From the NCBI GenBank assembly GCA_947623455.1, contig OX392530.1, positions 808,501 to 872,500 on the forward strand: a DNA stretch of 64,000 nucleotides. The letters run 5' to 3'. This document shows, one piece after another, positions 18,930-64,000 of this stretch. The notes under the pieces are model-generated. The model searched no databases. It was given only the letters and a program-made list of their open reading frames with translations, and was not told where the DNA came from. Each line of letters begins with the position of its first letter. Within the stretch, counting starts at the first letter, position 1. This DNA is from Mimachlamys varia (Eukaryota; Mollusca; Bivalvia; Pectinida; Pectinidae). A program made the translations under genes and the position numbers.

Positions 18930-19603
18930 CTATACTTCTCCTATGATGGCGGCCACTGAAAACTTTAGTCTGTCGGGCTTTGATACCACATCTTTACGAG
19001 TGGAAATCGCTGCAGATTTTCCATGTTTGGTTGTGATTTGGGTTTTCAACGGAGACACTTCCGTACTTTTTGTACTGCAGTCCATCACTCTTTGTTGTGT
19101 CTCGTTGACATACCGATTCCCATAGACAACATCCGGTTCTTTTTTCTGCTCTTGTGAAAAATCTTTGAATAAGGAAAATACGTTCTCGTGAATAATCTCT
19201 CTCGCCGGAACTGATGGAAGACACGATTTAATACATGGTACGTTACATACGATTTGTTGAACGGCTTTATTCAGATTTCCATGGCAACCTTGCCAAACAA
19301 GTTCTAGAACACTCGAGCTGTGGAACGGAAACATGCGTTGTAGGACGTCACGTGATGAGCTAGGCACCGTACTTGTCATATCTATAGCCTCCTTCTGGAC
19401 AAATCCATTCCGGGAACTTCCGGTTCCGGGCGAATTACTCACGTTTATATTTGTTTGTAATATTTCACGCTGTCTCTCGTGTTCAAACATTGCAAGCTCA
19501 AGATCTTTGTCGGCGAAACATCTTCGCTTGCGCATGCGCTCGTTGAATATTGGAGGCATGCATTTTTCGTCAGAGTTGTAAATCTGTGGTTTGTTTTTGT
19601 ATT
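18930..19603 (-). CDS. DMRT2: DMRT2 exon 3 (DMRT2 block and DMA domain)
   Basis: 674 nt from acceptor 'gatttacag' to the TAG stop. It encodes [14 protein letters not shown], the [13 protein letters not shown] block, a Ser-rich linker, the DMA-like domain and a basic tail ending in IIGEV. Confidence 0.9.
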
Positions 19604-22600
19604 CTGTAAATCAATGAGAAACAACTTATTTGATGATAAAGGAGCCATGTTTAGTAATGTTTTAATACTTCTTTTACAAAATTAGGTCAAATGTCAAACA
19701 ATCTTTAACATCGACGATTTGTCAGCTTTAATTGATCGTTAGTTGGCCAATTAAACATATTTATAAGAAACAATATAACATTGACTACATGTATCTGTAT
19801 TACGCGACTACATGTATATGATCTTCAATCTGAACACTTACTAGACAGTACATCACGTGACAACGTGTGTTGCTGCAGACTTCTGAGATTGCGCTGTATG
19901 AGCTTCCGGTGTTGAAGAATCTGGGTTGCCGTCTTCACTTTGTCCTTCAGAGTGATGGTCATCTCCGAGGCTTGGTGTCTGGCCAGTAGAAAATGATCGG
20001 ACATTAATTCAGAATCGATGCTTGGTTACAAGATTGTGTTCTAATGTTTTCAATAATTTAAGTGAACTCAGAAGGCAGGGTAACAGTACAGAGATACATA
20101 TGACGCCTTTAATAGTAGGTCTGTCACAGGGGCTGCGCAGAAGAGTTAACCGCGACAGTCTTAGGTCATGTGTTGGAATCCCGAGCCGTTTTCGTTGATG
20201 CGGAACAACCGGTTTGTCCGTTCTTTAATGTAAAGTTTTCGGGTACAAATCCTGACGGACATAGAAATGTGTATGTGGACCTTGCAAGACTTTCTCAAAG
20301 TCCGAAAGCAGTATCAGATTACCAGGTCCCACCTTATTTAATAAACGGACAACTGTGGTCTACCGCCTATACGAAAACGACCACGGTCTAACAAATAATT
20401 GAAGATAGGTACAATTAATTGAAAATAGGTTCAATTTTATTGAAGATAGGTACAATTGAATAGAACCTATGTACAAACATAACTTATTAATTAAATTGAA
20501 CCTATCTTTAATTCAATTAAAGATAGATTCCATTCAGTTTGTTATAGGAACAATTAAATTAGAGATATGTTCCATTCGGTTTATTTGAACCTATCTTTAA
20601 TAGAATTGTACCTATCTCCAATTGAACTATATCCATCTAAATTGAATTGAACATAAATTTTAATAGAATTGTACCTATCTTCAAATGAATTGAACCTTTC
20701 TTCAATTTAAGTGTACATACCTTCATTTATTTGAATATATGTTAATTTGGCGTTCCATACAGCATCTATTATTTTGCATTTTCATAAGTGGTAATCATGT
20801 CAGCAAAAAAATCTGTGCTTAGTAATAGATGTTGGAGAAGTGCGAGTGTTCTTGGTTAACAAGAATATGACGTGGGCGTTCCGCTCGGCACGACAGCGCG
20901 CACCTGTTCCTGGAGATTAACGCTGTAGCAGCATGCGATATGGCGAGGATTATCCGTGTTGGCGTCTCGTTACTTTCTAATTCCTATCAGGTCAAATATA
21001 AACAAGGGACCGGACGCCCGGACCAATATTGATTGGGACGTAATGCGAGAGTAAATAGACAGTAAATTGATAACACGTAACAAGAAATGATAGCTTCGTG
21101 TCAGATTTAAAACACGACCCAAACAAAATAATGTAAATGTGTATTTTTCTTCAGTGCATATATACTTTTGGAAGATTTTTTCCATGTTTTATAAAAGCGA
21201 GATTAAAGAGGAATACTAGTATAATGTATGATATATATACATGTAGCATGTTTATTTATGTTGATGTTCCGGCGCGGCGTGTGTAGTAAACAGACCGCCG
21301 TCGGTATGGTGGTCCGGAACAGTGCTCGGATATATATATATCACGTGCATATAATTTCTGTACTGTAAACTTTGGTCGTGAAACATTATCCGCGAAGTTT
21401 GGAGAATTGGTGATATTTATTTGTAGAAGGAGGAATGTGTAAACTTAACAAGTGTAATTATGTAGATCGCAGAATATCTGCTGATTAGAGTCAGCGAAAG
21501 GCCCAGCATCGCGTCTCTTCACAACATCAACAAGGTGTGTGGGTATTATACCAAGGGTAACCGATATCAACATGTCTAGTTGAAAAATCAAGTAAATTAT
21601 CCACTCAGTCAATATCTTTGTCCAAACACGAATAAATAATACAATGCTTTGCTCTGTACTGTAAACTCTGATAGAGGCAAATCTATTTGTTACTCCTATT
21701 GAAGCGTAAAGTATAGATTAGCCGATTTGAAGAAATATCGAAATAACAAGAGGCCCAATGGCCTTAACGGTCACCTGATTTTGATGTATTAGCACTAATA
21801 ACTGCATATCTGGGTCTTTAAAAAAGAAAATTGTTGAAATGTTAGTCAATTTGACCCTTTGAGCCCCTCCCCACTGCCCCTTGGATGGGCCAGAGTCAAA
21901 ATTCTTTTAACGTCAAATCGTCATCTCCTGGTTATAGTTTCAACCAAGTTTCAATTATCTCAAAATGTAAATGAACACAATATATCCCAACGTGTCATTT
22001 TCCTATTTAAGCTACAGAGTATTTTTTTGGGGGGGGGGGGGGGGGGGAGGGAGGGGGGCTGGAATTTTAATAAAGCATACTTAGGTGACCTAAAAATTAG
22101 AAAACATTATTATGCTTTTTTGTTTGCTAGAAAAAACGTTCCTTTTGTGGTAATTAAACTATACCTCCGAAGCCCTACTCGTGTTACGTGTAATTAAACA
22201 ATAACTATATCTCCGGAGTAATACTTATGGTAATTAAACAAGAACTATATCTCAGAGCGCTACTTGTGGTAATTAAACTATAACCGTACCTCCGCGCACT
22301 ACTTGTAGCAATTAAGCTATAACTGTACCTCTGAGCGCTACTTATGGTAATTAAACTATAACTGTTCCTCTGGAGCGCTACTTGTGGTAATTAAACTATA
22401 ACTGTTCCTCTGGAGCGCTACTTATGGTAATTAAACTATAACTGTTCCTCTGGAGCGCTACTTGTGGTAATTAAACTATAACTGTTCCTCTGGAGCGCTA
22501 CTTGTGGTAATTAAACTATAACTGTTCCTCTGGAGCGCTACTTGTGGTAATTAAACTATAACTGTACCTCCGGAGCGCTACTTGTGCCGCCATCACGCGC

Positions 22601-22812
22601 TGTCGTTCTACCACCAGGAGGCAGTTTGGGCACTGACAGTCGCGCCATCTACAGAACCGTTTGTGGCCCTTCAGACAGGACACCACTCCGTGGTTCCGAC
22701 AGCGGGCACACTTTGGCGTCCGTAACAGTTTTCGTCCGCCGCCACGGCTGGTAGATTTGTCCCGTAACATCTGTGTGTGTCCCTCCGACTTCCCTTCCTC
22801 TGGTTCAATCAT
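18930..22812 (-). CDS. DMRT2: DMRT2-type doublesex/mab-3 related transcription factor (3 exons)
   Basis: Zinc-binding DNA-binding regulator of the DMRT family, acting in the nucleus. Exons 22812-22568, 19978-19842 and 19603-18930 join in phase (2, then 1) to give 351 codons plus TAG. The DM domain covers about residues 31-82, with all eight Cys/His ligands visible ([42 protein letters not shown]). [24 protein letters not shown] is the DMRT2 signature as I remember it, and residues 143-165 ([20 protein letters not shown]) match the DMRT2-specific block after the DM domain. Residues about 213-246 ([20 protein letters not shown]...) form a DMA (CUE-like) domain. The start is chosen because an in-frame TAG lies just upstream of this ATG. 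An AG at 22827/22826 suggests a 5' UTR intron. DMRT2 orthologues function in somite, muscle and skeletal patterning; the role in this animal is inferred. Confidence 0.9.
19842..19978 (-). CDS. DMRT2: DMRT2 exon 2
   Basis: 137 nt between acceptor 'ctggccag' and donor CTGTCTA|GTAAGTG. It encodes [19 protein letters not shown] and the following [15 protein letters not shown] segment, continuing the helix after VALRR as in other DMRT proteins. Confidence 0.88.
20392..20740. repeat. bipolar short-repeat cluster (inverted) in DMRT2 intron 2
   Basis: Copies of 'gaagataggtacaatt' run forward at 20400-20460. Copies of the reverse complement ('aattgaacctatctttaat' type) run at 20480-20720. The two halves can pair into a long imperfect hairpin, so this is not a simple head-to-tail array. 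Confidence 0.8.
20741..22154. other. DMRT2 intron 2 sequence with repeat fragments
   Basis: Intronic. At 21749-21781 it holds 'aagaggcccaatggccttaa' followed by 'cggtcacctgat', the end of a dispersed repeat also seen near 26995. A run of 19 G at 22029-22047 is followed by further G tracts. No exon seen. Confidence 0.5.
22029..22047 (+). repeat. poly-G tract
   Basis: 19 consecutive G on the plus strand, followed by GGGAGGGGGG runs. It can form a G-quadruplex on the strand opposite to DMRT2 transcription. Its length may be unreliable because of sequencing. Confidence 0.8.
22155..22567 (-). repeat. 40-bp array derived from the DMRT2 exon 1 splice donor
   Basis: Ten 40-bp copies abut exon 1. 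In gene orientation a unit reads CACAAGTAGCGCTCCAGAG then GAACAGTTATAG. The true junction reads CACAAGTAGCGCTCCGGAG|GTACAGTTATAG. So 19 coding bases (VALRR region) plus the start of the intron have been amplified. The five units nearest the exon (periods at 22361, 22401, 22441, 22481, 22521) share GT to GA at the donor dinucleotide. Three older units (near 22164, 22286 and 22325) keep GT. Confidence 0.92.
22568..22812 (-). CDS. DMRT2: DMRT2 exon 1 (DM domain)
   Basis: Encodes residues 1-81 plus two bases and ends in CTCCGGAG|GTACAG. The 19 exon bases before the donor and the first intron bases are the unit of the adjacent 40-bp array (22155-22567). Confidence 0.92.
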
Positions 22813-22849
22813 GTCCTATGTCGATCTGTGTGTGAAACATTAAAACATC

Positions 22850-25285
22850 TCAATTGTTAAATAAACTGTATCTATTGTTAACTAAACTGTATCTATTGTT
22901 AACTAAACTGTATCTATTGTTAACTAAACTGTATTTATTGTTAACTAAACTGTATTTATTGTTAACTAAACTGTATCTATTGTTAACTGAACTGTATATA
23001 TTGTAAAAAACTGCATCTATTGTTAACTAAACTGTATCTATTGTTAACTAAACTCTATCTATTGTTAACTAAACCGTATCTATTGTTAACTAAACTGTAT
23101 CTATTGTTCTCTATCTATTGTTAACTAAACTGTATCTATTGTTAACTAAACTGTATCTATTGTTAACTAAACTGTATCTATTGTTAACTAAACTGTATCT
23201 ATTGTTAACTAAACCGTATCTATTGTTGACTAAACTGTATCTATTGTTAACTAAACTGTATATATTGTTAACTAAACTGTATATATTGTTAACTAAACTG
23301 TATCTATTGTTAACTAAACCGTATCTATTGTTAACTAAACTGTATCTATTGTTAACTAAACCGTATCTATTGTTAACTTAACTCTATCTATTGTTAACTA
23401 AACCGTATCTATTGTTAACTAAACTGTATCTATTGTTAACTAAACCGTATCTATTGTTAACTTAACTCTATCTATTGTTAACTAAACCGTATCTATTGTT
23501 AACTTAACTCTATCTATTGTTAACTAAACTGTATCTATTGTTAACTAAACTGTATCTATTGTTAAATAAACTCTATCTATTGTTAACTAAAGTGTATCTA
23601 TTGTTAACTAAAGTGTATCTATTGTTAACTAAACTGTATTTATTGTTAACTAAACTGTATTTATTGTTAACTAAACTGTATCTATTGTTAAATAAACTGT
23701 ATCTATTAACTAAACTGTATCTATTGTTAACTAAAGTGTATCTATTGTTAACTAAACTGTATCTATTGTTAACTAAACTGTATCTATTGTTAACTAAACT
23801 GTATCTATTGTTAACTAAACTGTATCTATTGTTAACTAAACTGTATTTATTGTTAACTAAACCGTATCTATTGTTAACTAAACTGTATCTATTGTTAACT
23901 AAAGTGTATCTATTGTTAACTAAACTGTATCTATTGTTAACTAAACTCTATCTATTGTTAACTAAACTGTATCTATTGTTAACTAAAGTGTATCTATTGT
24001 TAACTAAACTGTATCTATTGTTAACTAAACTATATCTATTGTTAACTAAACTATATCTATTGTTAACTAAACTGTATCTATTGTTAACTAAAATGTATCT
24101 ATTGTTAACTAAACTATATCTATTGTTAACTAAACTGTATCTATTGTTAACTAAACTCTATCTATTGTTAACTAAACTATATCTATTGTTAACTAAACTG
24201 TATCTATTGTTAACTAAAATGTATCTATTGTTAACTAAACTATATCTATTGTTAACTAAACTATATCTATTGTTAACTAAACCGTATCTATTGTTAACTA
24301 AACTGTATCTATTGTTAACTAAACTGTATCTATTGTTAACTAAAATGTATCTATCGTTAACTAAAATGTATCTATTGTTAACTTAAGTGTATCTATTGTT
24401 AACTAAAATGTATCTATCGTTAACTAAAATGTATCTATTGTTAACTTAAGTGTATCTATTGTTAACTAAACTGTATCTATTGTTAACTAAAATGTATCTA
24501 TTGTTAACTTAAGTGTATCTATTGTTAACTAAACTCTATCTATTGTTAACTAAAGTGTATCTATTGTTAACTAAACTGTATATATTGTTAACTAAACTGT
24601 ATCTATTGTTAACTAAATTGTATCTATTGTTAACTAAAGTGTATCTATTGTTAACTAAAGTGTATCTATTGTTAACTAAACTGTATCTATTGTTAACTAA
24701 ACTCTATCTATTGTTGAATAGACTGTATCTATTGTTAACTAAAGTGTATCTATTGTTAACTAAACTGTATCTATTGTTAACTAAAGTGTATCTATTGTTA
24801 ACTAAACTATATCTATTGTTAACTAAACTATATCTATTGTTAACTAAACCGTATCTATTGTTAACTAAACTCTATCTATTGTTAACTAAACTGTATCTAT
24901 TGTTAACTAAAATGTATCTATTGTTAACTAAACTCTATATATTGTTAACTAAACTGTATATATTGTTAACTAAAGTGTATCTATTGTTAACCAAACTGTA
25001 TCTATTGTTAACTAAACTGTATATATTGTTAACCAAAGTGTATCTATTGTTAACCAAACTGTATCTATTGTTAACTAAACTGTATATATTGTTAACCAAA
25101 GTGTATCTATTGTTAACTAAACTGTATCTATTGTTAACTAAACTGTATATATTGTTAACCAAAGTGTATCTATTGTTAACTAAACTGTATCTATTGTTAA
25201 CTAAACTGTATCTATTGTTAACTAAAATGTATCTTTTGTTAAATAAACTCTATTTAAATAAACTCTATTTATTGTTAAATAAACA
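22850..25285 (+). repeat. 21-bp tandem array
   Basis: About 115 copies of a 21-bp unit, 'ttaactaaactgtatctatt' plus g. The unit is seven codons, so plus-strand frames of up to 289 codons stay open (repeating LTKLYLL). These are not genes. A sub-block near 24950-25160 has a 63-bp three-unit period with 'aaccaaagtg'. The array lies just upstream of the DMRT2 coding start, in the 5' flank or a 5' UTR intron. Confidence 0.95.
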
Positions 25286-40200: not shown

Positions 40201-43200
40201 GGAGATAAACGTGCTATTACGTCTGTGTTTGTCTGATTTTAAGGACGTAGGGGAGATAAACTTGCTATTACGTCTGTGTTTGTCTGATTTTAGTACGTAG
40301 GGCAGATAAACCTGCTATTACGTCTGTATTTGTCTGAATTGAGGACGTAGGGGAGATAAACTTGCAATTACGTCTGTGTTTGTCTGAATTGAGGACGTAG
40401 GGGAGATAAACCTGCTATTACGTCTGTGTTTGTCTGAATTGAGGACGTAGGGAAGATAAACTTGCTATTACGTGTGTGTTTGTCTGATTTTAGAACGTAA
40501 GGGAGATAAACTTGCTATTTCGCCTGTGGTTGTCTGATTTTAGGACGTAAGGGAGATAAACGTGCTATTACGCATGTGTTTGTCTGATTTTAGGACGGGG
40601 GATAAACGTGCTATTACGTCTGTGTTTGTCCGATTTTAGGAAGTAGGGGAGATAAACGTGCTATTGCGCATGTGTTTGTCTGATTTTAGGACGTAGTGGA
40701 GATAAACTTGTTATTACGCTCACTGATCAATCCTCTACTTTTTGATACTGTTATATTGTTTAAACTAAAGTCTACAAATTTTGACATTTTACTGGATCAT
40801 TCAGATCAAATTTGCGAAAAGGGTCCTGTTTCACACCCCTTTTTAATGTATTAGGTATAGTATTATGCAGCTTCACCTCGGCTTGGAAATTAATTATTCC
40901 AAACTAGTTTATTTAGGTTAAGTATATGCTTGGGTATTTTATCAATAAGGTACTAGCGACTTTTGGAAATAAACAAGAATGCGCATTAATTTTTTCCTGA
41001 TTTGATGAAGTGAGGATGATAACCTCGATATAAATCTCACTGTTCAGGCACCTATTATCTTGATACTGCATAATGATGACCCCAGTCTCCCACCATTTTT
41101 CATGTTTTATGTAAAATTTGCAAAAATAAATCACAAGCTGGGCAAATTTATTCAAAACCAGTAGTTCATTTTGGGTAAGTATGTTTATGTTTAAGCAAAA
41201 ACGATTTTCTGACTATGATACTGGCGGTAAATGAAATTACTCAGTAAAATTGTCAGTCTATATCTGTATTACGTGGCGCTGTAATCGCAACAAAAACAAT
41301 AAGCCATTCCATGTGTAATTAGACTTATAAAATCAAAACTCTGGGATGACAAGATCACTTATTCAGATGTATTAAAAACCTACCCTATCCCACCTTAAAA
41401 TACTTTATCCTGAAGCGTTTGTACAGCGGTTTAATGTGGCCTAAATTATATTTATTATTCGCAGGTCTCCTGTATGTTTTGCTATATGTGCTTGTGTATG
41501 TACTATCATCTCTTGTATACATTACCATAATTTCTGCACATGAGTCAACTCTACTCTGTTTGTTTTGCAATCATAAACAACTCAAAACTGATGTAATTCG
41601 AAAAAGAGCCTTTGTTAAAAACTCCAGAAGATGGTGTCCTTTCATTGTACATCCATCAAAATTATCTCAGTATTTTAAAGTTATGCATGACCAAAAATAT
41701 GGCGATATCCTGTCATTAACACATCATCTTGCATATTATGTTTATTTCATTCAATACTGTCATTGTACATAGTGTATATAGTATATTTTTATTGTAGTAT
41801 CATTAAAACGGCCAATAGGATATTTTAAACTGTTGTAGTACCCCGTATCATTTAAATGGCCAAAAAGATATATATGTCCATTGTCTTTGTGATGATAACA
41901 TATAAGGGAAATTTCGTTATTAAAGGCCCAATATGCATAACTTCAGGAATATTTTAGGGATTACGAAAAAAAATTAAAAATCCAGTTGACACGTTTGTCA
42001 TGCTGATTTCTTAATGAATTATTGATTCATCCACCCTTTTAAACAAAAGTAAAATATTTGACGCGCAGGTTGTGCGGAGGGAAGTCCGAGGTGTTCCGGT
42101 AACCCCCGAAAGTTAAACGGCAAGTTTTGTGCCTCTACAACCAACTATCATGACTCGCACAAAGGGGCGTGTGGGTGTGGTCACAGTGATACGCCCTTCG
42201 GTTGGAATCAGAACAACTACGTAGCCGCGGCCAGTCAGATGGTGTTTGACTCTGGACGCAAGACGTGGTGTGGACAAAAATGTGGAAAATGCTTCAGGTT
42301 GACCACTACAGGTAAACTCATCTGTTTATAACAAGTGTTTTGTTGTGTGAAAGCTGAAGCTCTCAGAGAAAAGTCCAAAGTAGGTCTTAAACCCGCGACC
42401 CAGTAGTGGAGGGCCAGCACTAGCAGGAGGTCACAACCTTAAACACTTGATCACTACAGGTATGGTGTGTGTGATACTGATCACTACAGGTATGGTGTGT
42501 GATACTGATCACTACAGGTATGGTGTGTGATACTGGTCACTGCAGGTATGGTGTGTGTGATACTGATCACTACAGGTATGGTGTGTGTGATACTGATCAC
42601 TACAGGTATGGTGTGTGTGATACTGATCACTACAGGTATGGTGTGTGTGATACTGATCACTACAGGTATGGTGTGTGTGATACTGATCACTACAGGTATG
42701 GTGTGTGTGATACTGATCACTACAGGTATGGTGTGTGTGATACTGATCACTACAGGTATGGTGTGTGTGAAACTGAAAATTGTATTGTGTTTGGTATTTT
42801 ACCAAACTGATGCTCGAGTCTATATTTGGAAAGATAATCGTCAGAGATGAAAAGTTTAAATAGATTGATGGAAATATTCACGTTGAACACTGTAAACGAT
42901 GTAGGTGGTTGTCGTTGTAGTTGGTTGACATTGTAGGTGGTTGACGTTGTAGATGGTTGACGTTGTATGTTGTTGACATTTTAGGTGGTTGACGTTGTAG
43001 ATGGTTGACGTTGTATGTGGTTGACGTTGTAGTTGGTTGACATTGTAGGTGGTTGACGATGTAGATGGTTGACGATGTAGATGGTTGACGTTGTAGTTGG
43101 TTGACATTGTAGGTGGTTGACGCTGTAGATGGTTGACGTTGTAGTTGGTTAACGTTGTTGGTGGTTAACATTGTAAGTGGTTGACGTTGTAGTTGGTTAA

Positions 43201-43535
43201 CGTTGTATGTGGTTGATGTTGTAGGTGGCTTCGTGGACGGACAGGGATCTGCGCCTGCGGCAGGCGTATCGAAGGTTTTCATGGTGACAAACCTATGTCC
43301 GGCCGAGTACCCCAATATGCCTTGGTGTGCTCAGAACGCTGACCCCTTTAGTGGCGGTGTGAACACGCATGGTTATGGCTACCATTTTGACCTTGAAAAT
43401 GGTGCTCATCAGATCGATAGGCTTCAATGGAATAACCCCGAAGTGACAGTGGAGGAAGTTAACTGCGATGACCGCAACGACGGCATGACACCTCATAACA
43501 GTTGGTACAGTCAATGTGAATGTCATGGACATTGA
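31226..43535 (+). CDS. secreted endo-beta-1,4-glucanase, glycoside hydrolase family 45 (3 exons)
   Basis: Cellulase of the GH45 family, which cuts internal beta-1,4-glucan bonds; in bivalves such enzymes are secreted by the digestive system. Exons 31226-31262, 42069-42311 and 43225-43535 join in phase 1 to give 196 codons plus TGA. Residues 1 to about 17 (MISALVAILLLVGCAEG) are a signal peptide. The mature chain, about 179 residues, matches the 181-residue mussel enzyme in length. Family motifs are CASTTNYHDSHKGACGCG, WCGQKCGKCFRLTTTGG, NLCP, GYGYHFDLENG and WNNPEV. Twelve cysteines are present in the mature chain, which fits six disulfides. Asp41 (NYHDSH) and Asp149 (HFDL) are the likely catalytic pair by family comparison. 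Intron 1 is 10,806 bp and mostly minisatellite. Intron 2 (913 bp) has arrays near both ends. Molluscan GH45 genes are often suspected of ancient lateral origin; nothing here tests that. Confidence 0.95.
31480..37770. repeat. 26-bp array in GH45 intron 1
   Basis: About 240 copies of a 26-bp unit with core 'ggtgaggggacaagtaaata' then 'gtttct'. Unit length varies between 25 and 27 by G-run changes. The left end (31500-31750) is more diverged ('aataatttct'). Blocks of several hundred bases recur (for example around 33.85-34.1 kb, 34.2-34.4 kb and 34.85-35.0 kb). Minus-strand frames reach 1,289 codons of repeating SPHQKLFTCPLTRNYLLVP because few units contain a stop in that register. These are not genes. 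Confidence 0.95.
38010..40720 (+). repeat. 50-bp array in GH45 intron 1, acceptor-like unit
   Basis: About 50 copies of a 50-bp unit: 'ttaggacgtaggggagataa', 'acgtgctattacgtctgtgt', 'ttgtctgatt'. Read in gene orientation each unit contains 'gtttgtctgattttag|gac', which looks like a pyrimidine tract plus AG. It is interrupted by a 222-bp insertion at 38401-38622. Confidence 0.95.
38401..38622. mobile_element. 222-bp insertion in the 50-bp array (MITE candidate)
   Basis: It splits a repeat unit exactly and is flanked by ATTAC on both sides (38396-38400 and 38623-38627). It starts TGTAGTGAGACG and ends CCTCTACAAC, giving short imperfect inverted ends (TGTAG/CTACA). There is no coding capacity. 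Confidence 0.75.
40725..42068. other. 3' part of GH45 intron 1, no exon seen
   Basis: AT-rich unique sequence. Open frames of 117 and 80 codons (41419-41772 plus, 40913-41155 minus) have no motif I know and no splice support, so I leave them as intron. Confidence 0.5.
42069..42311 (+). CDS. GH45 exon 2
   Basis: 243 nt from acceptor 'ttgacgcgcag' (a weak site without a good pyrimidine tract) to donor CACTACAG|GTAAAC. It encodes CAEGSPRCSGNPRKLNGKF through KCFRLTTT. Confidence 0.92.
42449..42770 (+). repeat. 30-bp array of donor-like units in GH45 intron 2
   Basis: Eleven copies (starts near 42451, 42481, 42509, 42537, then every 30 bp to 42747) of 'gatcactacaggtatggtgt' plus 'gtgtgatact'. 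The piece GATCACTACAGGTA differs at one base in 14 from the exon 2 donor GACCACTACAG|GTA at 42299-42314. Every copy has CAG|GTATGG. Confidence 0.9.
42897..43230 (+). repeat. 16-bp array ending in the GH45 exon 3 splice acceptor
   Basis: About twenty copies of a 16-bp unit 'gttgtaggtggttgac' with g/a and t/a variants. The final copy is 'gatgttgtag|gtggcttcg', in which the bar marks the true exon 3 acceptor. The first exon bases (GTGGCTTCGTGGAC) are a diverged continuation of the unit. Confidence 0.9.
43225..43535 (+). CDS. GH45 exon 3
   Basis: 311 nt from acceptor 'gatgttgtag' to TGA. It encodes GFVDGQGSAPAAG through QCECHGH. The acceptor is the last repeat of the 16-bp array. Confidence 0.93.
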
Positions 43536-43592
43536 CGCTACTTCTATCAATTCTGATTTAAATTATTACAATCCAGCGAATGTTTTTTATCC

Positions 43593-44689: not shown

Positions 44690-44730
44690 TATATAGCCCT
44701 ATATGTTATTAGAGTAATTAACAGCACGAT

Positions 44731-45240
44731 ATGCATACACCTACAAGTCTACTACAGTACCAACTATATGGATTCGCCCCCTCATCTCGATTTAGAACTG
44801 GCCCACAAGTGATCATCCCGTATATCAAAGGCATATCCGAAACCATCCAGAGGATATACCACAATCATGGCATAGCAACAGCCCTGAAGCCCCACAAAAC
44901 TCTTCGGAACATCCTTGTACATCATACGGATAAAACACCGAAAGAAAACGTTGCAGAATGCGTGTACAAGATTGGTTGCCAAAACTGCAACGAGTCATAT
45001 ATTGGAGAGACGGCAAGACGTTTTGGTGTTCGTCTTTGTAAACACAAGAAAGATACTGACACACAAGATTAATTCACCAGCTCAGAAAAGAAGCAGACGG
45101 AGTCTCAGATCAACAAATCGGCTATCACAGACCATGCCGTACAGAACGATCATGTGACTGACTGGGAAAGCTCCAAAGTAAACCTTCAACGTTTGCAGCG
45201 AAATGATCAGACAAATCCTTAACGTCAAACCAGAGGATGT
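44731..45240 (+). pseudogene. Penelope-like element C-terminus with GIY-YIG domain, frameshifted
   Basis: The first frame reads VIIPYIKGISETIQRIYHNH, LRNILVHHTDKTPKENVAE, CVYKIGCQNCNESYIGETA and RRFGVRLCKHKK, then a stop at 45072. Another frame then continues with SEKKQTESQINKSAITDHAV. The Cys pair followed by SYIGET and the basic H is the GIY-YIG endonuclease linked to the RT of Penelope-like elements. The RT itself is not upstream, so this is a 3' fragment. Confidence 0.65.
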
Positions 45241-45995: not shown

Positions 45996-46024
45996 CTCGT
46001 AGTTAGCGTGCCCTTGACACACAC

Positions 46025-46160
46025 GTAGAAGGAAAGCGAGGACCTGCACGGCCCAACATGTCATGGAGTGAGTTCACAGAGAGTGGAATCCATGTTGACC
46101 CTCATGATAGAGCCACTTGGAGATCTGGAATGAGATCTGCCATGCGTGCAGCTAGCCAGC
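46025..46160 (+). pseudogene. C-terminal end of a LINE ORF2
   Basis: In the plus frame: GKRGPARPNMSWSEFTESG, then HVDPHDRATWRSGMRSAMRA, then ASQLSGRGPT. The pattern RGxPxxxW...DxxDRxxWRxxxRxA is the usual end of non-LTR retrotransposon ORF2 proteins. The frame continues without a stop into the 33-bp array. Confidence 0.65.
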
Positions 46161-49100
46161 TATCTGGAAGAGGGCCCACATCAGCTACCCAGCTATCTGG
46201 AAGAAGGTCCACATCAGCTACCCAGCTATCTGGAAGAGGGCCCACATCAGCTACCCAGCTATCTGGAAGAGGGCCCACATCAGCTAGCAAGCTATCTGGA
46301 AGAGGGTCCACATCAGCTACCCAGCTATCTGGAAGAGGGCCCACGTCAGCTAGCAAGCTATCTGGAAGAGGGCCAACATCAGCTAGCCAGCTATCTAGAA
46401 CGTCCACATTAGCTAGCAAGCTATCTGGAAGAGGGCCCACATCAGCTACTCAGCTATCTGGAAGAGGGCCCACATCAGCTACCCAGCTATCTGGAAGAGG
46501 GCCCACATCAGCTACTCAGCTATCTGGAAGAGGGCCCACATCAGCTACTCAGCTATCTGGAAGAGGGCCCACATCAGCTAGCAAGCTATCTGGAAGAGGG
46601 CCCACATCAGCTAGCAAGCTATCTGGAAGAGGGCCCACATCAGCTACCCAGCTATCTGGTAGAGGGCCCACATCAGCTACCCAGCTATCTGGAAGAGCGC
46701 CAACATCAGCTACCCAGCTATCTGGAAGAGGGCCCACATCAGCTACCCAGCTATCTGGAAGAGGGCTCACATCAGCTACCCAGCTATCTGGAAGAGGGCC
46801 CACATCAGCTACCCAGCTATCTGGAAGAGGGCCAACATCAGCTACCAAGCTATCTGGAAGAGGGCCCACATCAGCTACCCAGCTATCTGGAAGAGGGCCA
46901 ACATCAGCTACCCAGCTATCTGGAAGAGGGTCCACGTCAGCTACCCAGCTATCTGGAAGAGGGCCCACATCAGCACCCCAGCTATCTGGAAGGCCCACAT
47001 CAGCTAGCCAGCTATCTGGAAAAAGGCCCACATCAGCTACCCAGCTATCTGGAAGAGGGCCAACATCAGCTACCCAGCTATCTGGAAGAGGGTCCACGTC
47101 AGCTACCCAGCTATCTGGAAGAGGGCCCACATCAGCACCCCAGCTATCTGGAAGGCCCACATCAGCTAGCCAGCTATCTGGAAGAAGGCCCACATCAGCT
47201 AGCAAGCTATCTGGAAGAGGGCTCACATCAGCTACCCAGCTATCTGGAAGAGGGCCCACGTCAGCTAGCAAGCTATCTGGAAGAGGGCCCACATCAGCTA
47301 GCCAGCTATCTGGAAGGCCCACATCAGCTAGCCAGCTATCTAGAAGGTCCATATTAGCTAGAAAGCTATCTGGAAGAGGGCCCACATCAGCTACCCAGCT
47401 ATCTGGAAGAGGGCCCACATCAGCTACCCAGCTATCTGGAAGAAGGTCCACATCAGCTACCCAGCTATCTGGAAGAGGGCCCACATCAGCTACCCAGCTA
47501 TCTGGAAGAGGGCCCACATCAGCTAGCAAGCTATCTGGAAGAGGGTCCACATCAGCTACCCAGCTATCTGGAAGAGGGCCCACGTCAGCTAGCAAGCTAT
47601 CTGGAAGAGGGCCAACATCAGCTAGCCAGCTATCTAGAACGTCCACATTAGCTAGCAAGCTATCTAGAAGAGGGCCCACATCAGCTACTCAGCTATCTGG
47701 AAGAGGGCCCACATCAGCTACCCAGCTATCTGGAAGAGGGCCCACATCAGCTACTCAGCTATCTGGAAGAGGGCCCACATCAGCTACCCAGCTATCTGGA
47801 AGAGGGCCCACATCAGCTAGCAAGCTATCTGGAAGAGGGCCCACATCAGCTAGCAAGCTATCTGGAAGAGGGCCCACATCAGCTACCCAGCTATCTGGTA
47901 GAGGGCCCACATCAGCTACCCAGCTATCTGGAAGAGCGCCAACATCAGCTACCCAGCTATCTGGAAGAGGGCCCACATCAGCTACCCAGCTATCTGGAAG
48001 AGGGCTCACATCAGCTACCCAGCTATCTGGAAGAGGGCCCACATCAGCACCCCAGCTATCTGGAAGGCCCACATCAGCTAGCCAGCTATCTGGAAGAAGG
48101 CCCACATCAGCTAGCAAGCTATCTGGAAGAGGGCCCACATCAGCTACTCAGCTATCTGGAAGAGGGCCCACATCAGCTACCCAGCTATCTGGAAGAGGGC
48201 CCACATCAGCTACTCAGCTATCTGGAAGAGGGCCCACATCAGCTACCCAGCTATCTGGAAGAGGGCCCACATCAGCTAGCAAGCTATCTGGAAGAGGGCC
48301 AACATCAGCTAGCAAGCTATCTGGAAGAGGGCCAACATCAGCTACCCAGCTATCTGGTAGAGGGCCCACATCAGCTACCCAGCTATCTGGAAGAGCGCCA
48401 ACATCAGCTACCCAGCTATCTGGAAGAGGGCCCACATCAGCTACCCAGCTATCTGGAAGAGGGCTCACATCAGCTACCCAGCTATCTGGAAGAGGGCCCA
48501 CATCAGCTACCCAGCTATCTGGAAGAGGGCCAACATCAGCTACCAAGCTATCTGGAAGAGGGCCCACATCAGCTACCCAGCTATCTGGAAGAAGGCCAAC
48601 ATCAGCTACCCAGCTATCTGGAAGAGGGCCAACATCAGCTAGCCAGCTATCTGGAAGAGGGTCCACGTCAGCTACCCAGCTATCTGGAAGAGGGCTCACA
48701 TCAGCTTCCCAGCTATCTGGAAGAGGGCCCACATCAGCTAGCCAGCTATCTGGAAGAGGGCCCACATCAGCTACCAAGCTATCTGGAAGAGGGCCCACAT
48801 CAGCTACCAAGCTATCTGGAAGAGGGCCCACATCAGCTACCCAGCTATCTGGAAGAGGGCCAACATCAGCTACCAAGCTATCTGGAAGAGGGCCCACATC
48901 AGCTACCCAGCTATCTGGAAGAGGGCCAACATCAGCTACCAAGCTATCTGGAAGAGGGCCAACATCAGCTAGCCAGCTATCTGGAAGAGGGTCCACGTCA
49001 GCTACCCAGCTATCTGGAAGAGGGCTCACATCAGCTTCCCAGCTATCTGGAAGAGGGCCAACATCAGCTACCCAGCTATCTGGAAGGCCCACATCAGCTA

Positions 49101-49411
49101 GCCAGCTATCTGGAAGAGGGTCCACGTCAGCTACCCAGCTATCTGGAAGAGGGCCCACATCAGCTACCCAGCTATCTGGAAGAGGGCCAACATCAGCTAC
49201 CAAGCTATCTGGAAGAGGGCCAACATCAGCTAGCAAGCTATCTGGAAGAGGGCTCACATCAGCTACCAAGCTATCTGGAAGAGGGCCCACATCAGCTACC
49301 CAGCTATCTGGAAGAAGGCCAACATCAGCTACCCAGCTATCTGGAAGAGGGCCAACATCAGCTAGCCAGCTATCTGGAAGAGGGCCCACATCAGCTACCC
49401 AGCTATCTTGA
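46146..49411 (+). repeat. 33-bp array grown from the LINE ORF2 C-terminus
   Basis: About 98 copies of a 33-bp unit, 'cagctatctggaagagggcc' plus 'cacatcagctacc', encoding QLSGRGPTSAT. The same peptide is the end of the LINE fragment just upstream. Shorter 27-bp units (QLSGRPTSAS) keep the frame. The whole array is open in frame with the LINE tail (46058-49411, 1,117 codons), and long minus-strand frames are open as well. A block of about 1,239 bp is repeated (the 'ctagaacgtccacatt' marker at 46395 and 47634). Confidence 0.93.
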
Positions 49412-51723: not shown

Positions 51724-51732
51724 CCTTTAATG

Positions 51733-51843
51733 TCACACTGTCTGTATTGTTGATGCCAGGTCCATGAGCTGATCCCACGTCATAAACACCGACTCATTCT
51801 TACGTGTATCTGTAACCTCAAATACTGGTGGGTCTTGTAGAGC
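51733..51843 (-). CDS. PARS2: PARS2 exon j (C-terminus)
   Basis: Acceptor 'gttttcag'; encodes ALQDPPVFEVTDTRKNESVF and MTWDQLMDLASTIQTV, then TGA. Confidence 0.95.
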   Translation of the reverse strand, partial: ALQDPPVFEVTDTRKNESVFMTWDQLMDLASTIQTV

Positions 51844-57800: not shown

Positions 57801-60800
57801 CCCTGGATATCAAGGATGACTTTTTCTTGAGTATAGAGAGTGTAGGTGAGAGTAACACCTGGATATCAAGGATGAAATATTCCGGGGTATAGAGAGTGTA
57901 GGTGATTGTAACCCCTGGATGTTGAGGATGGTTCCAGGGGTGTAGAGAGCGTAGGTGAGTGTAACACCTGGATATCAAGGATGAAATATTCCGGGGTATA
58001 GAGAGTGTAGGTGAGTGTAACATATTCAGGATGACATATTCAGGGGTATAGAGAGCATAGGTGAGCGTAACCCCTGGATGTCAAGGATGACATATTCCTG
58101 GGTGTAGAGAGTGTAGGCGAGCGTAACCCCTGAATGTCAAGGATGACATATTACGGGGTATAGAGAGTGTAGGCGAGCATAACCCCTGAATGTCAAGGAT
58201 GACATATTCCGGGGTGTAGAGAGTGTAGTGAGCGTAACCCCTGAATGTCAAGGATGACATATTCTGGGGTATAGAGAGTGTAGGCGAGCATTACCCCTGG
58301 ATATCAAGGATGACATATTCTGGGGTATAGAGAGCGTAGGTGATAGTAACCCCTGTCTATCGAGGATGACATATTCTAGGGTATAGAGAGCATAGGTGAG
58401 CGTAACCCCTGGATGCCGAGAATGACATATTCCGGGGTGTAGAGAGCGTACATTGTAGGTGAGTGTAAAGTCTTGATGTCCAGGGTGGTACCAGGGGTGT
58501 AGAGAGTGTAGGTGAGCGTAACCCCTGGATGTCGAGGATGGTACCAGGGGTGTAGAGAGTGTAGGGAAGTGTAATGCCTGGATGTCGAGGATAGTACCAG
58601 AGGTGTAGAGAGTGTAGGTGAGCGTAACCCCTGGATATCGAGGATGACATATTGGGGGTATAGAGAGTGTAGGTGAGCGTAACCCCTGGATGTCGAGGAT
58701 GACATATTCCGGGGTATAGAGAGTGTAGGTGAGCGTTACCCCTGGATGCCGAGGATGCTAGGAGAGACTTACTTCCATTGGTATAATACAGATCTGGTAA
58801 GGTGCTATTAATCGAGGCCAGACTATCAAATTTTCTGGAGATAAAACTTCAACACAAGCCTGCATTATTCTAGATACTCCAAGTCCATAGCATCCCATCT
58901 GATAAAATCTGAAACAAAAATTAGTATTCATTAAAAATATCTCAACCATTCAAGAATTGCTAATAACATAGTTCATTGTAATGGTAAAATATCTTTATCC
59001 CGGTATAGTTCACTGATAGTAAAGTATCTTTGTCCCAGCTTGTATAGAGGTTTTTAATGGTAAAATATAGCCTACCCTGGTTTTGATGCTGAGTCAAGAC
59101 ATCTGGCATTGAAAGGCTCCGAGTACTTTGTTCCTAGCAGGAAAGAATGTCCAACCTTGATAAAAGAAAATAGATTTACACATGTACTTTAGGCATACCT
59201 CAAAACATAATTCACAAACTTCCTTACTGTCTGAAAATCTCACAGGGGAGTTTACACTTGATCAAAATTACAACATTAATCAACGTAGTCTGTATACACC
59301 TATTGCATCTGTTCTTCCAGATGATACCATTAGAATTTTGGAAAGAGTTAATCAGATTTATTGGTTGAAAGTGCTCAATTTTAAGATTCAAAATGGTGAG
59401 TCACCTTCAAATATAAGGGTAGGGAAAATTAGCCGCAAGTACAAATTCTTTCAGAAGAACCAGTATACAACCAAGCTGAAATGGTGATGTTTCATTGCTG
59501 TGCTCAGAGCAGAGAAGCACATGTGTGCCTTGCTGAATAAGTGGCATAACGACAAGTATTAAGAAAACCATTTCTGTGAGAAATATTCTCACAGAAACAC
59601 TCAGACAGACAGACAGACAGATGGACAGACAGACGGAGAGGGACTAATTACCTCTATAGAGGACGGTTTTAATAATTCACAGCAACTCTCCGAACATTTC
59701 TTGTCTGTTGCCTCTTTAAAAGGAAATAAAAAAAACCATATAAATAACAACACCATGAAACAAGTATGGCAAAAATGTTATCACATTTGCATCAGAGCTG
59801 TAAAGAACAGCATGACTCGCCTATTGGTAACTATATTGTACTAAAGCGAAAATAAACAGAAACACATGTAAAGCAAAACCTAGACAGGCGAGATAAAAAT
59901 ATCTCCAGAAAAAAAATTACTGGCAACTAGTTAAACATAAGAAATGACCTATCAAGTAATTAGAGGTAATTCCATGTTCATCAGTTTGTCATTGTGTTTA
60001 ACAGATACAATAACAAAGCCAAAATATACCTAACAAATCTTACCTGTAGTTTCAGCATTAGCTCCAAATCCACACCTGACAAAATAGAATGTTTCAAATA
60101 AGCAAATAGCATTCAAACACTTGTAGTAAAACAGGTTTATAAAAAATCTCGGGGAACCAAGAGAACTACTTCGTTATGAGCATAGTTTCTTATACATATA
60201 TATCATGTATAAGAAATTTTGGAAAAATCCAAGCGTAATTGGTGATAGGAAATATACATATCAATAAAGACCGACTTATTATTGTAAAATTATTGAGAAA
60301 CTTTGATACAGTGGACTCCACTTAATATGACATTTCTCTTAATATCACGTTCCTCTTTATATCATGTTTTTCCTAAGCACCATTTTTCTCTATATATAAT
60401 CGATGTAATTTTATCTGGTTAATATCATGAATTTTGAGGTGAATTCCTCTTAATATCATGGTTTTTTTAACCAATCACACAAAATATCCAGAAAATGATG
60501 TAATTTCCATTGCTTTCAAATACAACTTGTACAAAATAGAAAATAAAAAACAGCTCTAAAAATGCTTTTTAATTGAAATAATGTCATCTTTATATAGAAA
60601 CATCTTCATATGTACATTGAATATCTTACTTTTAGTTTCTCTTAATGTCACATTCCTGTTAATATCATTTTTTTGTCTGACAAATACAACATGATATAAA
60701 GAGGAGTGTACTGTATATCTCAATCGCAGTACAATGATGACAAGTTGCATATGTCATTTTAAGGACACTGGTAATTATATGTTATGTAGAAGAGTTAGGG

Positions 60801-63800
60801 CTACATGCTGCTCCATGAAATGCACTCTTTTGAGCTTGAAATGAAATTCCGATTGAGCATTATCCTTCAGATGTGAGCTAGCTAAAACACAAAGGAATGG
60901 TAAAGAACACAAACTTTTTGCAGACATGGATCGTGTCCTCCCCGATATCCGCCCTGATTTGGAACTCGTGGGACATGCTTCCTCCGATATTGCCCGTCGA
61001 ACCAATCACTGAAAATGAAATATAGGATAAGTCATGCAAGTACCATGTATGATATCTTACACTTTGTCAACTGGTTTTTAAAACTTACAGGGTAAAGATA
61101 TTGAAAAGAACACGTTTAAAGATTAAAAATAAAAAAGAAACATTTTACCCATGCGACCCTGAAAGTTAACAATGTTATTACTTAAGCAATGAATGTTGAT
61201 GACAAAATAAATAAAGCCCGATAGGGCTTTATGTAAGTTTGTCAGCAGTAGCAATGTGTGTTATAGGACTGTAACAATATTTGCTTAAATGTTCATTACT
61301 TATATTTACATTTTGATAGAATTATTGTGCTTTATTTAGTTTCTTCTGACCGATTTTGATCAGCAAATCAAGTGAAGACAACAATGAAATCCATGACGTC
61401 ACAATAGAGATGATGACGTCACAATACCAACTGCTGTTATAGTCTGAGGCACTGGGTGTTATAGGCGTATGACAGCAACTGCCTCTTAGCATTGTGTCAA
61501 TGGAAAATTGCAGAGCAAATGTAAATATATAAATTTATCTTGTAGTCTTTCTTCTTGACATAAAACTTACCAAACATTTAAAGGTCTACATATGTCTGAC
61601 AAAAACTGACCTTGAAAGTTTACATATGTCTGACAAACAATGACCTTGAAAGTTGGTTAAATTCATTAAAATGGTCAGGAAATAACCTAAAGAAATACAT
61701 GTATTGGTGCCAACAATTGTTTGATCTTCATATGTTCTTTAATTATTGGATCTTTTCTCCTATGTGCTCTTTTTTCCTCTTTTTTGCACATCTTTTTATA
61801 AAATTTGAAAATTCTTTTAAAGAAACAGTTTTGAGTTATAAAATCAAATATGGCTGCCTGTCAGTCATTTTGCTTTATCTGATCAGTCCCAAAATGAAGA
61901 AGACACAACTATATACAAAGGGGATTGGAGTCTACATATGAAATTTGAATAAGATCTCTCCATGACTTTCATAGTAAAAATCCAGGATGGTTACTTGTCA
62001 GCCATTTTCTTCTTTCTATCAGTCCCAAAATGGAAAGGGCCTAACTACCCACAGTAGTACATACCTACATCATAGTCCATCTCTAGTCGGTCCAGTATTC
62101 GTTTGTAAGCTGTACAGACTGATTTATACGTCTCAGCTGCCTCTTCTACTGTGGCATCAAATGTGTACAAATCTATAATGAAATAAAACTCAAGCATATG
62201 ATATCAATTCAAACATCCCTCACAGTTGCTAACTTATGTCAACCAGAGAACAGAATTGAAAGCGAAGTAGATGAATTATCATTTTATTGTCAATTTGTTG
62301 CTTCATCAAATCATACATTATCATTTTCAATAAAGGCTGTCAAAATTTTCAAACCACTTGTTACATAACGGTATAAATCGTACCTTTCATTTCAAATTCT
62401 CGACCTCGTAGAAAGCCATATTTAGGAGAATCTTCATCTCGAAATTTTCTTGTTATCTGAAAGTGAGATTGGTAGATTTTACAACAGAATCCAGATTTAA
62501 CCAACTGTATTCATCGTAACTAGCAACCAGGGCACTTAAATGAGGTAACAAAATTAGATCTGGAAGAAAAGTGTTGATTTAAGTTGATAATTATGTGTAC
62601 AATGTATTGTGACAAGAATGGGTAGTACTCATGATGTGTGACATTACTGTAATAAACTCTGGGCAGTTTGTACACATGTTACTGATATTTTGCGAGTATT
62701 TTCTTGTAAACATCATGCCCACTGATATTTTGTGAGTATTTTCTTGTAAACATCATGCCCAAAGTCGGGTTTCTGTAACGTTGAGTAGAATCGTTTTGTT
62801 ACGATTAGTAGGGGCGCTTATGTAACTTTGATACCTCCGTCGAAGGGGGAGGAGCGCTTATAGGAAAAGGGGCATTAATTACGGCAAATACAGTTTATAA
62901 TATCATCCTTCATATAAATGTATCTGACTTCAATGTTAACAAGTGTTTTTGGAGGATAAAAATGACTGACAAGAGGACCAGTGGACCTGCATTGCTCATC
63001 TGAAAATTGTGTAATCATGGAAAAATATTCTCAATACCGTAAAAACTTGTGTTATCAGTATCTGTGCACTTTTTTTAAGGTAAATTAAAATCCAAAAGTG
63101 GGGGGTGCGTAAATTATACTGATACAGATGTGTGTCAGGTTTTTTTCAGTGAAAGATCGAGAAATCTGAAGGATGCTGCCATGTTAGAAAGTTGGGATCG
63201 TTTCCCTTAGTACAAAAATCCAGATGAAGTAAGCAGATTCAATTCAATAATCAATAATAATTAATTTCACTTTATGTCCAGCAATGTATAGTTTTGGGGT
63301 GGGACGTCTATAGCTGTCGGACGGACGGACGGACGGACGGACGGACGGACGGACGGACGGACGATGGACGCCGCACCATGGTAAAAACCGGCTCTTCAGT
63401 CCAGGGAGACGTTAGGACAGAGAAAGTTGTCAGAAATAAATGCCCCCCCATATGAAATTAGTTTTTCATGCTTATTACGTATGCGAAGTTTGATGACAAT
63501 CGGATCAGTAGTTATTTAAATAAGCTGGTTACATTACTATGGGACGGGACGGGACGGGACGGGACGGGACGGGATGGGACGGGACGGGACAGAATGGGAC
63601 GGACATGGCTAACACTATATGCCCTCCCCCCCCCCCCATTTAATGGCGGGGGCATAAAAAGATAAAATCCCATATAAATTAGTTGCCTCTTATGATCTTG
63701 CAATGGGGGAAGCAGTTGAAATTGTTACGCCCTACCTGTGGTACAGCCTTCGTGACCTAAACAAAGGGGCTTACCTGATTCATTTTGATAGGGTCTTACC

Positions 63801-64000
63801 TGATACATTTTGATAGGGTCTTACCTGATACATTTTGATAGGGTCTTACCTGATACATTTTGATAGGGTTTTACCTGATACATTTTGATAGGGTCTTACC
63901 TGATACATTTTGATAGGGTCTTACCTGATACATTTTGATGGGCAGACGCTTGTATGATAACATAGGGCCGGAAGCAAGTATGTTTGTGATCACTTCTTCA
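51733..64000 (-). CDS. PARS2: mitochondrial prolyl-tRNA synthetase, 3' ten exons (5' part outside window)
   Basis: Class II aminoacyl-tRNA synthetase that charges mitochondrial tRNA-Pro. Ten exons (64000-63925, 62456-62384, 62172-62065, 61008-60915, 60075-60044, 59713-59652, 59155-59076, 58908-58773, 54430-54263, 51843-51733) join in phase to 312 codons plus TGA. The human protein is about 475 residues, so roughly 160 N-terminal residues lie beyond the window. Visible blocks: EEVITNILASGPMLSYKRLP; motif 2 RGREFEMKDLYTFD; GNIGGSMSHEFQ and ADIGEDTIHVCKKCGFGANA; VGHSFLLGTKYSEPFNA; motif 3 MGCYGLGVSRIM; the C-terminal anticodon-binding domain with GEVVIDDRDKR and GYPYIIT; and the end MDLASTIQTV. 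No bacterial-type editing insert is present between motifs 2 and 3, as in the mitochondrial enzyme. Confidence 0.95.
51850..52135. repeat. 91-bp x 3 tandem repeat beside the last PARS2 acceptor
   Basis: Three copies of about 91 bp, each with 'gatcatatgaaatatgaagt', 'gagaatgatacaccctatat' and 'gccaaaacaattaactttct'. The array starts within about 15 bases of the exon j acceptor. The third copy is slightly diverged ('cacacaatatttc'). Confidence 0.88.
52136..54262. other. PARS2 intron, no further exon seen
   Basis: AT-rich intron. Plus-strand open frames at 52925-53173, 53201-53545 and 53542-53778 (78-114 codons) lie close together and could be one decayed coding relic. I recognise no domain in them. 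Confidence 0.45.
54263..54430 (-). CDS. PARS2: PARS2 exon i (anticodon-binding domain)
   Basis: 168 nt, acceptor 'cattttcag', encoding SEKECLSIAECMSDELNKRS, GLSGEVVIDDRDKRVTFRR and GYPYIITIKDK, donor GATAAG|GTAACT. It joins exon h and exon j in phase 0. Confidence 0.94.
54431..55400. other. PARS2 intron, no exon seen
   Basis: Contains a loose repeat of 'tgaagaaattggttgaaaactg' modules and, at about 55181-55245, an inverted and diverged copy of the 56-bp unit. A 70-codon minus frame at 55073-55285 includes that unit and is not needed for PARS2, because exons h and i join directly in phase. Confidence 0.6.
55400..58755. repeat. 56-bp array in a PARS2 intron
   Basis: About 62 copies of a unit of 56 bp or, where 'catattcc' is replaced by a shorter 'gggaccagg' form, about 49 bp. 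The core is 'gtaacccctggatatcgagg', 'atgacatattccggggtata', 'gagagtgtaggtgagc'. Minus-strand frames of up to 294 codons are repeat artefacts. It is the bulk of the 4.3-kb intron between exons h and i. Confidence 0.95.
56101..58190. repeat. 1,148-bp higher-order duplication in the 56-bp array
   Basis: The block from 56101 to 57248 recurs from 57249 onward. The markers 'gactttttcttgagtata', 'gtagccctttgatattgag' and 'gtaacatattcaggatgaca' all shift by exactly 1,148 bp. The second copy loses one unit near 58180. Confidence 0.9.
58773..58908 (-). CDS. PARS2: PARS2 exon h (motif 3)
   Basis: Acceptor 'ttgtttcag'; encodes FYQMGCYGLGVSRIMQA through LIAPYQICIIPME; donor ATGGAA|GTAAGT. The 56-bp array starts about 15 bases into the following intron. 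Confidence 0.95.
59076..59155 (-). CDS. PARS2: PARS2 exon g
   Basis: Acceptor 'cttttatcaag'; encodes VGHSFLLGTKYSEPFNARCL and DSASKP; donor CCAGG|GTAGGC in phase 2. Confidence 0.92.
59652..59713 (-). CDS. PARS2: PARS2 exon f
   Basis: 62 nt, acceptor 'cttttaaag', encoding ATDKKCSESCCELLKPSSIE, donor ATAGAG|GTAATT. It supplies the CxxC-like pair and the IE before VGHSF found in the human protein. This is the least certain exon because its sequence is the most diverged. Confidence 0.8.
60044..60075 (-). CDS. PARS2: PARS2 exon e (32-nt micro-exon)
   Basis: Acceptor 'ttttgtcag'; encodes CGFGANAETT; donor CTACAG|GTAAG. The phases fit both neighbours and the human counterpart CSFSANMET. Confidence 0.88.
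60309..60713. mobile_element. pogo/Tigger-like MITE in a PARS2 intron
   Basis: The 405-bp element starts CAGTGGACTCCACTTAATAT and ends with the complement (ATATAAAGAGGAGTGTACTG), flanked by TA on each side. CAGT ends plus TA duplication fit the Tc1/mariner-pogo group. The interior is rich in 'cttaatatcatg' modules and has no transposase. Confidence 0.75.
60915..61008 (-). CDS. PARS2: PARS2 exon d
   Basis: Acceptor 'cattttcag'; encodes IGSTGNIGGSMSHEFQ and IRADIGEDTIHVCK; donor AAAAA|GTTTGT. Confidence 0.92.
62065..62172 (-). CDS. PARS2: PARS2 exon c
   Basis: Acceptor 'cattatag'; encodes DLYTFDATVEEAAETYKSV and AYKRILDRLEMDYDV; donor GTAG|GTATG. Confidence 0.93.
62384..62456 (-). CDS. PARS2: PARS2 exon b
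   Basis: Acceptor 'ctttcag'; encodes ITRKFRDEDSPKYGF and LRGREFEMK; donor AAAG|GTACG. Contains class II motif 2 (RxE). Confidence 0.94.
62681..62762. repeat. 42-bp direct duplication
   Basis: Two copies of 'actgatattttgtgagtatt' plus 'ttcttgtaaacatcatgccc', one base different, in a PARS2 intron. Confidence 0.85.
63319..63362. repeat. (GGAC)n microsatellite
   Basis: About eleven GGAC repeats in a PARS2 intron, followed by 'gatggacgccgcaccatgg', the usual end of a dispersed repeat in this genome type. Confidence 0.85.
63541..63604. repeat. (GGGAC)n microsatellite
   Basis: About twelve GGGAC pentamers with two interruptions in a PARS2 intron. Confidence 0.85.
63771..63945 (-). repeat. 25-bp array copied from a PARS2 exon-intron junction
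   Basis: Seven copies at exact 25-bp steps (plus-strand 'ttacctgat' at 63771, 63796, 63821, 63846, 63871, 63896, 63921). The one at 63921 is the real donor of exon a. In gene orientation a unit is ATCAAAATGTATCAG|GTAAG plus ACCCT. The 15 bases before the bar are coding sequence (IKMYQ) in the true copy. Five of the six extra copies keep CAG|GTAAG; one has GTAAA. Confidence 0.95.
63925..64000 (-). CDS. PARS2: PARS2 exon a (partial at window edge)
   Basis: Encodes EEVITNILASGPMLSYKRLP and IKMYQ, ending ATGTATCAG|GTAAG in phase 0. Its donor is the first of seven copies at 25-bp spacing. Confidence 0.93.

Follow-up and report, generated by a model that had tools for sequence, protein, structure and literature searches.

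Minisatellites whose repeat unit copies a splice junction of the gene that carries them were found in the scallop Mimachlamys varia, both in the 64,000 nucleotide stretch analysed here (the window; C4:808501-872500 in an assembly of 975,302,275 bases) and far beyond it, at 19 of 380 sampled exon edges. These splice-junction arrays are not local to the window, and a preliminary description of the window was right that each unit derives from a junction of its host gene and that units differ between genes. We consider it probable (about 0.7) that the arrays are junction-spanning minisatellites of the type known in amphioxus as mirages, and that they arise by random duplication and are tolerated at junctions.

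Arrays at the junctions of three genes in the window

The first array lies at a donor site of a PARS2-like gene, for which the following features were recognized.

63925..64000, minus strand: partial exon, ending ...LPIKMYQ|GTAAGA, with tRNA-synt_2b (Pfam) in the spliced product
63765..63939, minus strand: donor array, seven copies of a 25 bp unit made of 15 exonic and 10 intronic bases (TRF and aligned copies)
62384..62456, minus strand: next exon, ITRKFRDE..., with acceptor CTTTCAG
62065..62172, minus strand: third exon in the window, with a putative 3' end
60906..61008, minus strand: fourth exon in the window, with an arbitrary 3' end

This array had been described as copying the gene's own donor, and its seven 25 bp copies, with 97% matches, bear that out. 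In a search that skipped very common words, other matches in the genome were only 69-78% identical and were themselves arrays.

The second array lies at the donor of a DM-domain gene.

22568..22812, minus strand: DM-domain exon, from the ATG to ...AAQVALRR, with donor CGGAG|GTACAG
22190..22586, minus strand: donor array, about 10 copies of a 40 bp unit made of 19 exonic and 21 intronic bases (TRF)
19842..19978, minus strand: exon 2
18930..19603, minus strand: exon 3, with the DMA motif

When spliced at the exon-proximal donor, this gene yields a 351 aa product with DM and DMA domains (Pfam) that is collinear with the Mizuhopecten protein P0002 across the junction (by eye). As the product carries DMA beside DM, the gene is not DMRT2, the name given to it in the preliminary description, and the collinear Mizuhopecten protein is named DMRT 3a-like by its source. 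The name was therefore rejected, but the array of about 10 copies of the gene's own donor was as described.

The third gene, GH45, includes two arrays.

42069..42311, plus strand: exon ending ...LTTT, with donor ACTACAG|GTAAAC and a putative 5' end placed at an AG
42448..42776, plus strand: 11 copies of a 30 bp unit resembling the donor (14 of 15 bases, by eye; TRF)
42896..43228, plus strand: 20.8 copies of a 16 bp unit that supply the acceptor TTGTAG and include approximately 4 exonic bases (TRF)
43225..43536, plus strand: last exon, GGFVDGQG...

The GH45 product matches Pfam EXPB1_D1 and its relatives are endoglucanase-like. In the Mizuhopecten GH45 protein, LTTT|GGFVDG is continuous over the intron position. 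Both arrays had been put forward as copies or close likenesses of the gene's junctions. The 16 bp array does reach and supply the acceptor AG, but with only about 4 exonic bases it is a marginal case, while the 30 bp array is donor-like but detached, beginning approximately 135 bp inside the intron downstream of the donor, and does not cover the junction itself. With its acceptor inside an array, GH45 could be a case of splice-site turnover. For GH45 and, by eye, for the DM gene, reading frames collinear with the Mizuhopecten proteins suggest that the exon-proximal site is the one used.

Arrays thus cross three of 13 putative junctions in the window (six in the PARS2-like gene, four in the DM gene and three in GH45), and there is one detached look-alike. 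The preliminary description held that three of three genes was hard to credit to chance. The probability of at least three in 13 is 0.002 at a background of 2% and 0.025 at the 5% overall rate for sampled edges (see below), but neither value is fair because the window was picked for looking striking.

The assembly, xbMimVari1.1, is a HiFi assembly (44-fold; QV 64.4; PMC11252643), and among named proteins the closest to those of the window are scallop ones. The window is rich in tandem arrays, with 55 repeat-finder rows and one array longer than 10 kb, a satellite-like array of approximately 342 copies of a 31 bp unit that forms a single 10.6 kb block at 6095-16679. An open frame of 1134 residues at 46007-49411, which could mislead gene prediction, is mostly the in-frame translation of a 33 bp tandem array. 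Another open frame, at 44722-45072, contains CNESYIGETARRFGVRLCKHK and, by eye, resembles the GIY-YIG-type nuclease end of a retroelement.

Frequency of junction arrays across the genome

Exons of four families were sampled, namely CCT (PF00118; 52 of 52 listed hits), SLC6-type transporter (PF00209; 59 of 108), dynein (PF03028; 31 of 31) and kinesin (PF00225; 48 of 131); none of the 35 tRNA synthetase hits was taken. Exon edges were the edges of HMM hits rather than annotated ones, edges at domain ends were kept in the denominator and junctions were curated by eye. Among the 380 edges of 190 exons, 19 (5%) had a junction-copying array, that is, one whose unit includes exon bases and the splice site. 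The proportion ranged from 1% to 9% by family, with one in 104 CCT edges, eight in 118 PF00209 edges, one in 62 dynein edges and nine in 96 kinesin edges. Both the 5' and 3' boundaries of introns are represented, by 11 donors and eight acceptors. The total includes the C15:963208 acceptor and the C7:13890487 donor, where the repeat finder stops before the exon, and falls to 17 if these are dropped. An additional array, C7:7744570, at a PF00209-like exon that is not itself a hit, is outside the 19.

Several further arrays beside sampled exons were not counted, as exon bases were not seen to be copied. They are the donor at C19:24871651 and the donor-side array at C19:9472691; the acceptors at C8:16625228, C9:50526417, C10:3870282 and C16:11437745; the donor-side arrays at C6:32587697 and C15:963208; the donor at C11:30938175, the acceptor at C9:24940818 and an acceptor-side array near C6:10384831; and a 17 bp pair beside the exon at C11:28577531.

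The searches also returned long unbroken kinesin or tRNA-synthetase matches in the small contigs C33, C36 and C60, with scores far above those of chromosomal exons. TAG codons within the match in C33 and C36 raise the possibility of a contaminant with another genetic code. Repeated near-equal kinesin hits at C10:7.99-8.95 Mb and repeated tRNA-synthetase hits at C14:12.5-15.0 Mb suggest recent segmental duplication.

Across the controls, 1.5-2.3% of noncoding points fell within an array's end unit, and end units covered 1.6% of 137 kb of flanks and 2.0% of the 59 kb of noncoding DNA in the window. Array density predicts 5.95 or 7.55 junction arrays against the 19 curated (P = 1.3e-5 and 2.8e-4; this and the following P values for excess treat junctions as independent, and several sampled exons are paralogous or from the same gene and the families differ). 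Among sequence-matched control points, 21 of 988 donor-like GT sites and 26 of 1313 acceptor-like sites were in an end unit, and by this measure the 11 donors compare with 4.0 expected (P = 0.003) and the eight acceptors with 3.8 (P = 0.04). With the two doubtful arrays dropped, the values for the 10 donors and seven acceptors are P = 0.008 and P = 0.085, respectively. Counted per kb, exon-facing array ends stood at 0.64 from 45 to 4 bases within the hit and at 1.13 from that point to 10 bases beyond its edge; the values were 0.27-0.55 for intron bins and 0.29 for positions deeper in the hit.

Recurrence of the 30 bases around each of 362 putative junctions was also tested automatically against 8296 control points. 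Over five thresholds, 14-17 of the 362 junctions were positive, a ratio of 2.1-2.6 (P = 0.001-0.005). Of the 46 kinesin donors in this test, eight were positive, and without kinesin donors, at threshold 22, the rate of seven in 316 is that of the background (P = 0.35). A first, cruder control, which scored every array edge lying between 75 bp within and 15 bp beyond an exon edge, over the first 152 edges, gave no excess (seven against 5.0 expected, P = 0.24; strict count five against 3.7, P = 0.31). It was replaced because its expectation includes array ends deep within exons.

The same arrays could be the product of chance and of a reader's selection, three hits having been picked out where about 2% of noncoding points sit in array end units. 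The high density of arrays fits this explanation, as do a rate near background once kinesin donors are removed and the background rates of CCT and dynein. We nevertheless consider it unlikely, as curated arrays were found in all four families, at 5% of edges overall, and in PF00209 and kinesin at the frequencies given above.

A different explanation of the excess is a mutational process that prefers junctions, especially strong donors. Tandem duplication would be promoted by the donor motif or by the step from exon to intron, and arrays would start at junctions at several times the rate seen for introns. The excess over array density and over matched GT sites and the ratio in the automatic test argue for it, as does a genome-wide count of a donor motif. 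Three CAGGTAAG motifs spaced 8-38 bases apart were found 13,397 times and the reversed motif 915 times, a raw 14.6-fold difference, unadjusted for real single counts or gene context, and these are not numbers of arrays because long arrays count many times. When listed places were grouped by eye, those of the donor motif, which reach 4.17 Mb into C1, formed six arrays, and those of the reversed motif formed 12 over C1 and C2 (130.5 Mb). Under a third-order Markov model built from non-array DNA the single motifs are expected nearly equally often (23,500 donor and 22,000 reversed), and 190 kb of non-array DNA contained 11 donor and four reversed motifs. Repeat units also scored higher than reversed units on a donor matrix (98 arrays, P = 2e-5), both in 34 arrays near exon edges (P = 1e-4) and in 64 away from them (P = 0.03).

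However, strong donor scores in those 64 arrays were equal, at one in the units and one in the reversed units. Real donors raise the single count of the donor motif by some amount and add seeds. CCT and dynein, with two arrays at 166 edges, show no excess, nor did the first control, and the automatic excess is gone once kinesin donors are removed. A process that prefers junctions had been proposed in the preliminary description. What stands of it is a two- to threefold excess, mainly at kinesin donors and PF00209 acceptors, with none in the first control, and the raw 14.6-fold difference between the motifs. A surplus over background as a general feature of junctions is not established, as kinesin donors carry it. 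We hold such a process to be possible, though at less than even odds. A fuller form is tentative to the same degree, namely a duplication process in scallops drawn to junctions, above all strong donors, with arrays at several percent of junctions that persist through decay of mis-spliced transcripts and with units divisible by three purged. If it is correct, splice junctions would be a class of minisatellite birthplace.

Decoy sites, unit lengths and intron age

Random duplication tolerated at junctions, the explanation that we prefer, can be set out in four steps. First, tandem duplication by slippage or repair would occur in many places in a repeat-prone genome. Second, as the anatomy of the arrays shows, a boundary-spanning duplication leaves the first donor or the last acceptor beside the exon and the extra copies in the intron. 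Third, the spliceosome would normally take the exon-proximal site, and junction arrays would be tolerated because splicing removes the extra copies with the intron. A transcript spliced at a decoy would in most cases be frame-shifted and destroyed by nonsense-mediated decay, so that arrays are tolerated. Fourth, decoy splice sites drift, on average over 22 arrays, as other positions of the unit do.

Decoys were examined in 22 arrays (three from the window, C7:7744570 and all but one of the 19), which include 209 decoys. The splice dinucleotide departs from its unit at 23 of 417 cells, compared with 433 of 7847 cells at other positions, a rate of 5.5% in each case (Wilcoxon P = 0.52), and decoy sites are on average neither kept nor purged. 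The preliminary description had suggested selection that keeps arrays at junctions, and selective retention of decoy sites is not supported. That selection favours junction arrays, with repeated sites strengthening splicing or giving alternative isoforms, is very unlikely. Although arrays are in excess at some donors and an intact AG/GT dinucleotide is present in 186 of the 209 decoys, the dinucleotides change as often as other positions, and the periods avoid multiples of three, which are those that would give usable in-frame isoforms. The DM array is an outlier in that only two of its 10 downstream copies keep an intact GT. Purging could be one reading of this, but five of the other eight read GAGGAACAG, and a single mutation amplified within the array explains these five equally well.

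Divided by three, the periods of the 22 junction arrays leave remainders of 1, 2 and 0 in 14, six and two cases, respectively, compared with 34, 33 and 42 for 109 other arrays. Periods divisible by three are therefore found in two of 22 junction arrays and in 42 of 109 others (Fisher P = 0.0066; a post hoc comparison, with some arrays phased by hand). The deficit would fit decay of frame-shifted transcripts, with in-frame insertions being harmful. Tolerance of random duplications would account for much of what was found. A real preference for junctions or for strong donor motifs may come on top of this, in view of the two- to threefold surplus over noncoding background, mainly of kinesin donors, and a real preference for donors is possible.

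The acceptor position is common to 18 PF00209 exons (by eye). Of these, five carry an array, the periods being 61, 66, 91, 31 and approximately 35. As the position is shared and the five periods differ, the intron predates the arrays. The five exons (L048, L062, L070, L072 and L075) may mark a hot position.

The age of this intron bears on a further explanation, the Rogers model, in which the arrays would be newly gained introns produced by tandem duplication of exon segments that include AG|GT. Published examples of the model are fission yeast, ATP2A1 and amphioxus globins, AG|GT is present in many of the units, and three other DM exons in the genome (L001, L003 and L004) lack the intron directly after the ALRR of the DM domain (22568). 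However, the arrays in the window occupy one end of a longer intron, the PF00209 acceptor is common to 18 exons of which only five have arrays, and the sequence at the DM junction after splicing is AG|AC rather than AG|GT. We consider recent intron gain very unlikely.

Comparison with known systems

A minisatellite in IFI6 (6-16) reportedly provides multiple splice donors in one gene (Turri, Cuin and Porter, 1995). Unlike IFI6, where use of multiple donors is reported, 20 of the 22 scallop periods would shift the frame, and the decoys are recognized in sequence only.

Introns gained by tandem duplication of AG/GT sequence have been described for ATP2A1, fission yeast and potato RdRp (PMC4974935). 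As in those cases, the sequence duplicated in the scallop carries AG/GT. However, intron gain places copies of AGGT on both sides, whereas the arrays in the window are at one boundary and the PF00209 intron is common to exons with no array. A new intron bounded on both sides by one exonic AGGT segment was not found in the window genes or at the PF00209 acceptor.

The closest likeness is to the mirages of amphioxus, tandem repeats across exon-intron boundaries in Adh3, troponin C, the globins Gb6 and Gb9, and PGBD5 that have been proposed as a way in which new introns could arise (PMC3087553, PMC3902484). Mirage units are 10-160 bp, decoys often have AG/GT and splicing is reportedly undisturbed (PMC3087553, PMC3902484). 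The view that no named class of repeat is defined in this way is thus superseded. Like mirages, the scallop arrays span both donors and acceptors, their units combine exon bases with adjoining intron bases, and their decoys have AG/GT, though the scallop side of the comparison is known from the genome alone. Units of exon plus adjoining intron bases are found in the PARS2-like gene, the DM gene and the 19 sampled arrays; in GH45, the acceptor array is marginal and the 30 bp array is detached.

No report of splice-junction arrays in molluscs was found in titles or abstract openings of the open-licence literature, which is weak evidence of absence. The arrays are of a type already described, here in a phylum from which no report was found and at a frequency for which no published statement was found. 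If approximately 5% of edges hold arrays, an extrapolation from four widely differing families, the genome would offer thousands of natural tests of spliceosome choice among near-identical sites. Because a reference copy of the unit is retained in a conserved exon, the age of an array, the direction in which it grew and what its decoys cost are measurable. If decay of mis-spliced transcripts is the source of tolerance, a shortage of periods divisible by three follows as a direct and cheap prediction. Unlike mirages, described from a handful of lancelet genes, the arrays reported here are from a mollusc, occur at approximately 5% of sampled edges and come with statistics on decoy drift and period.
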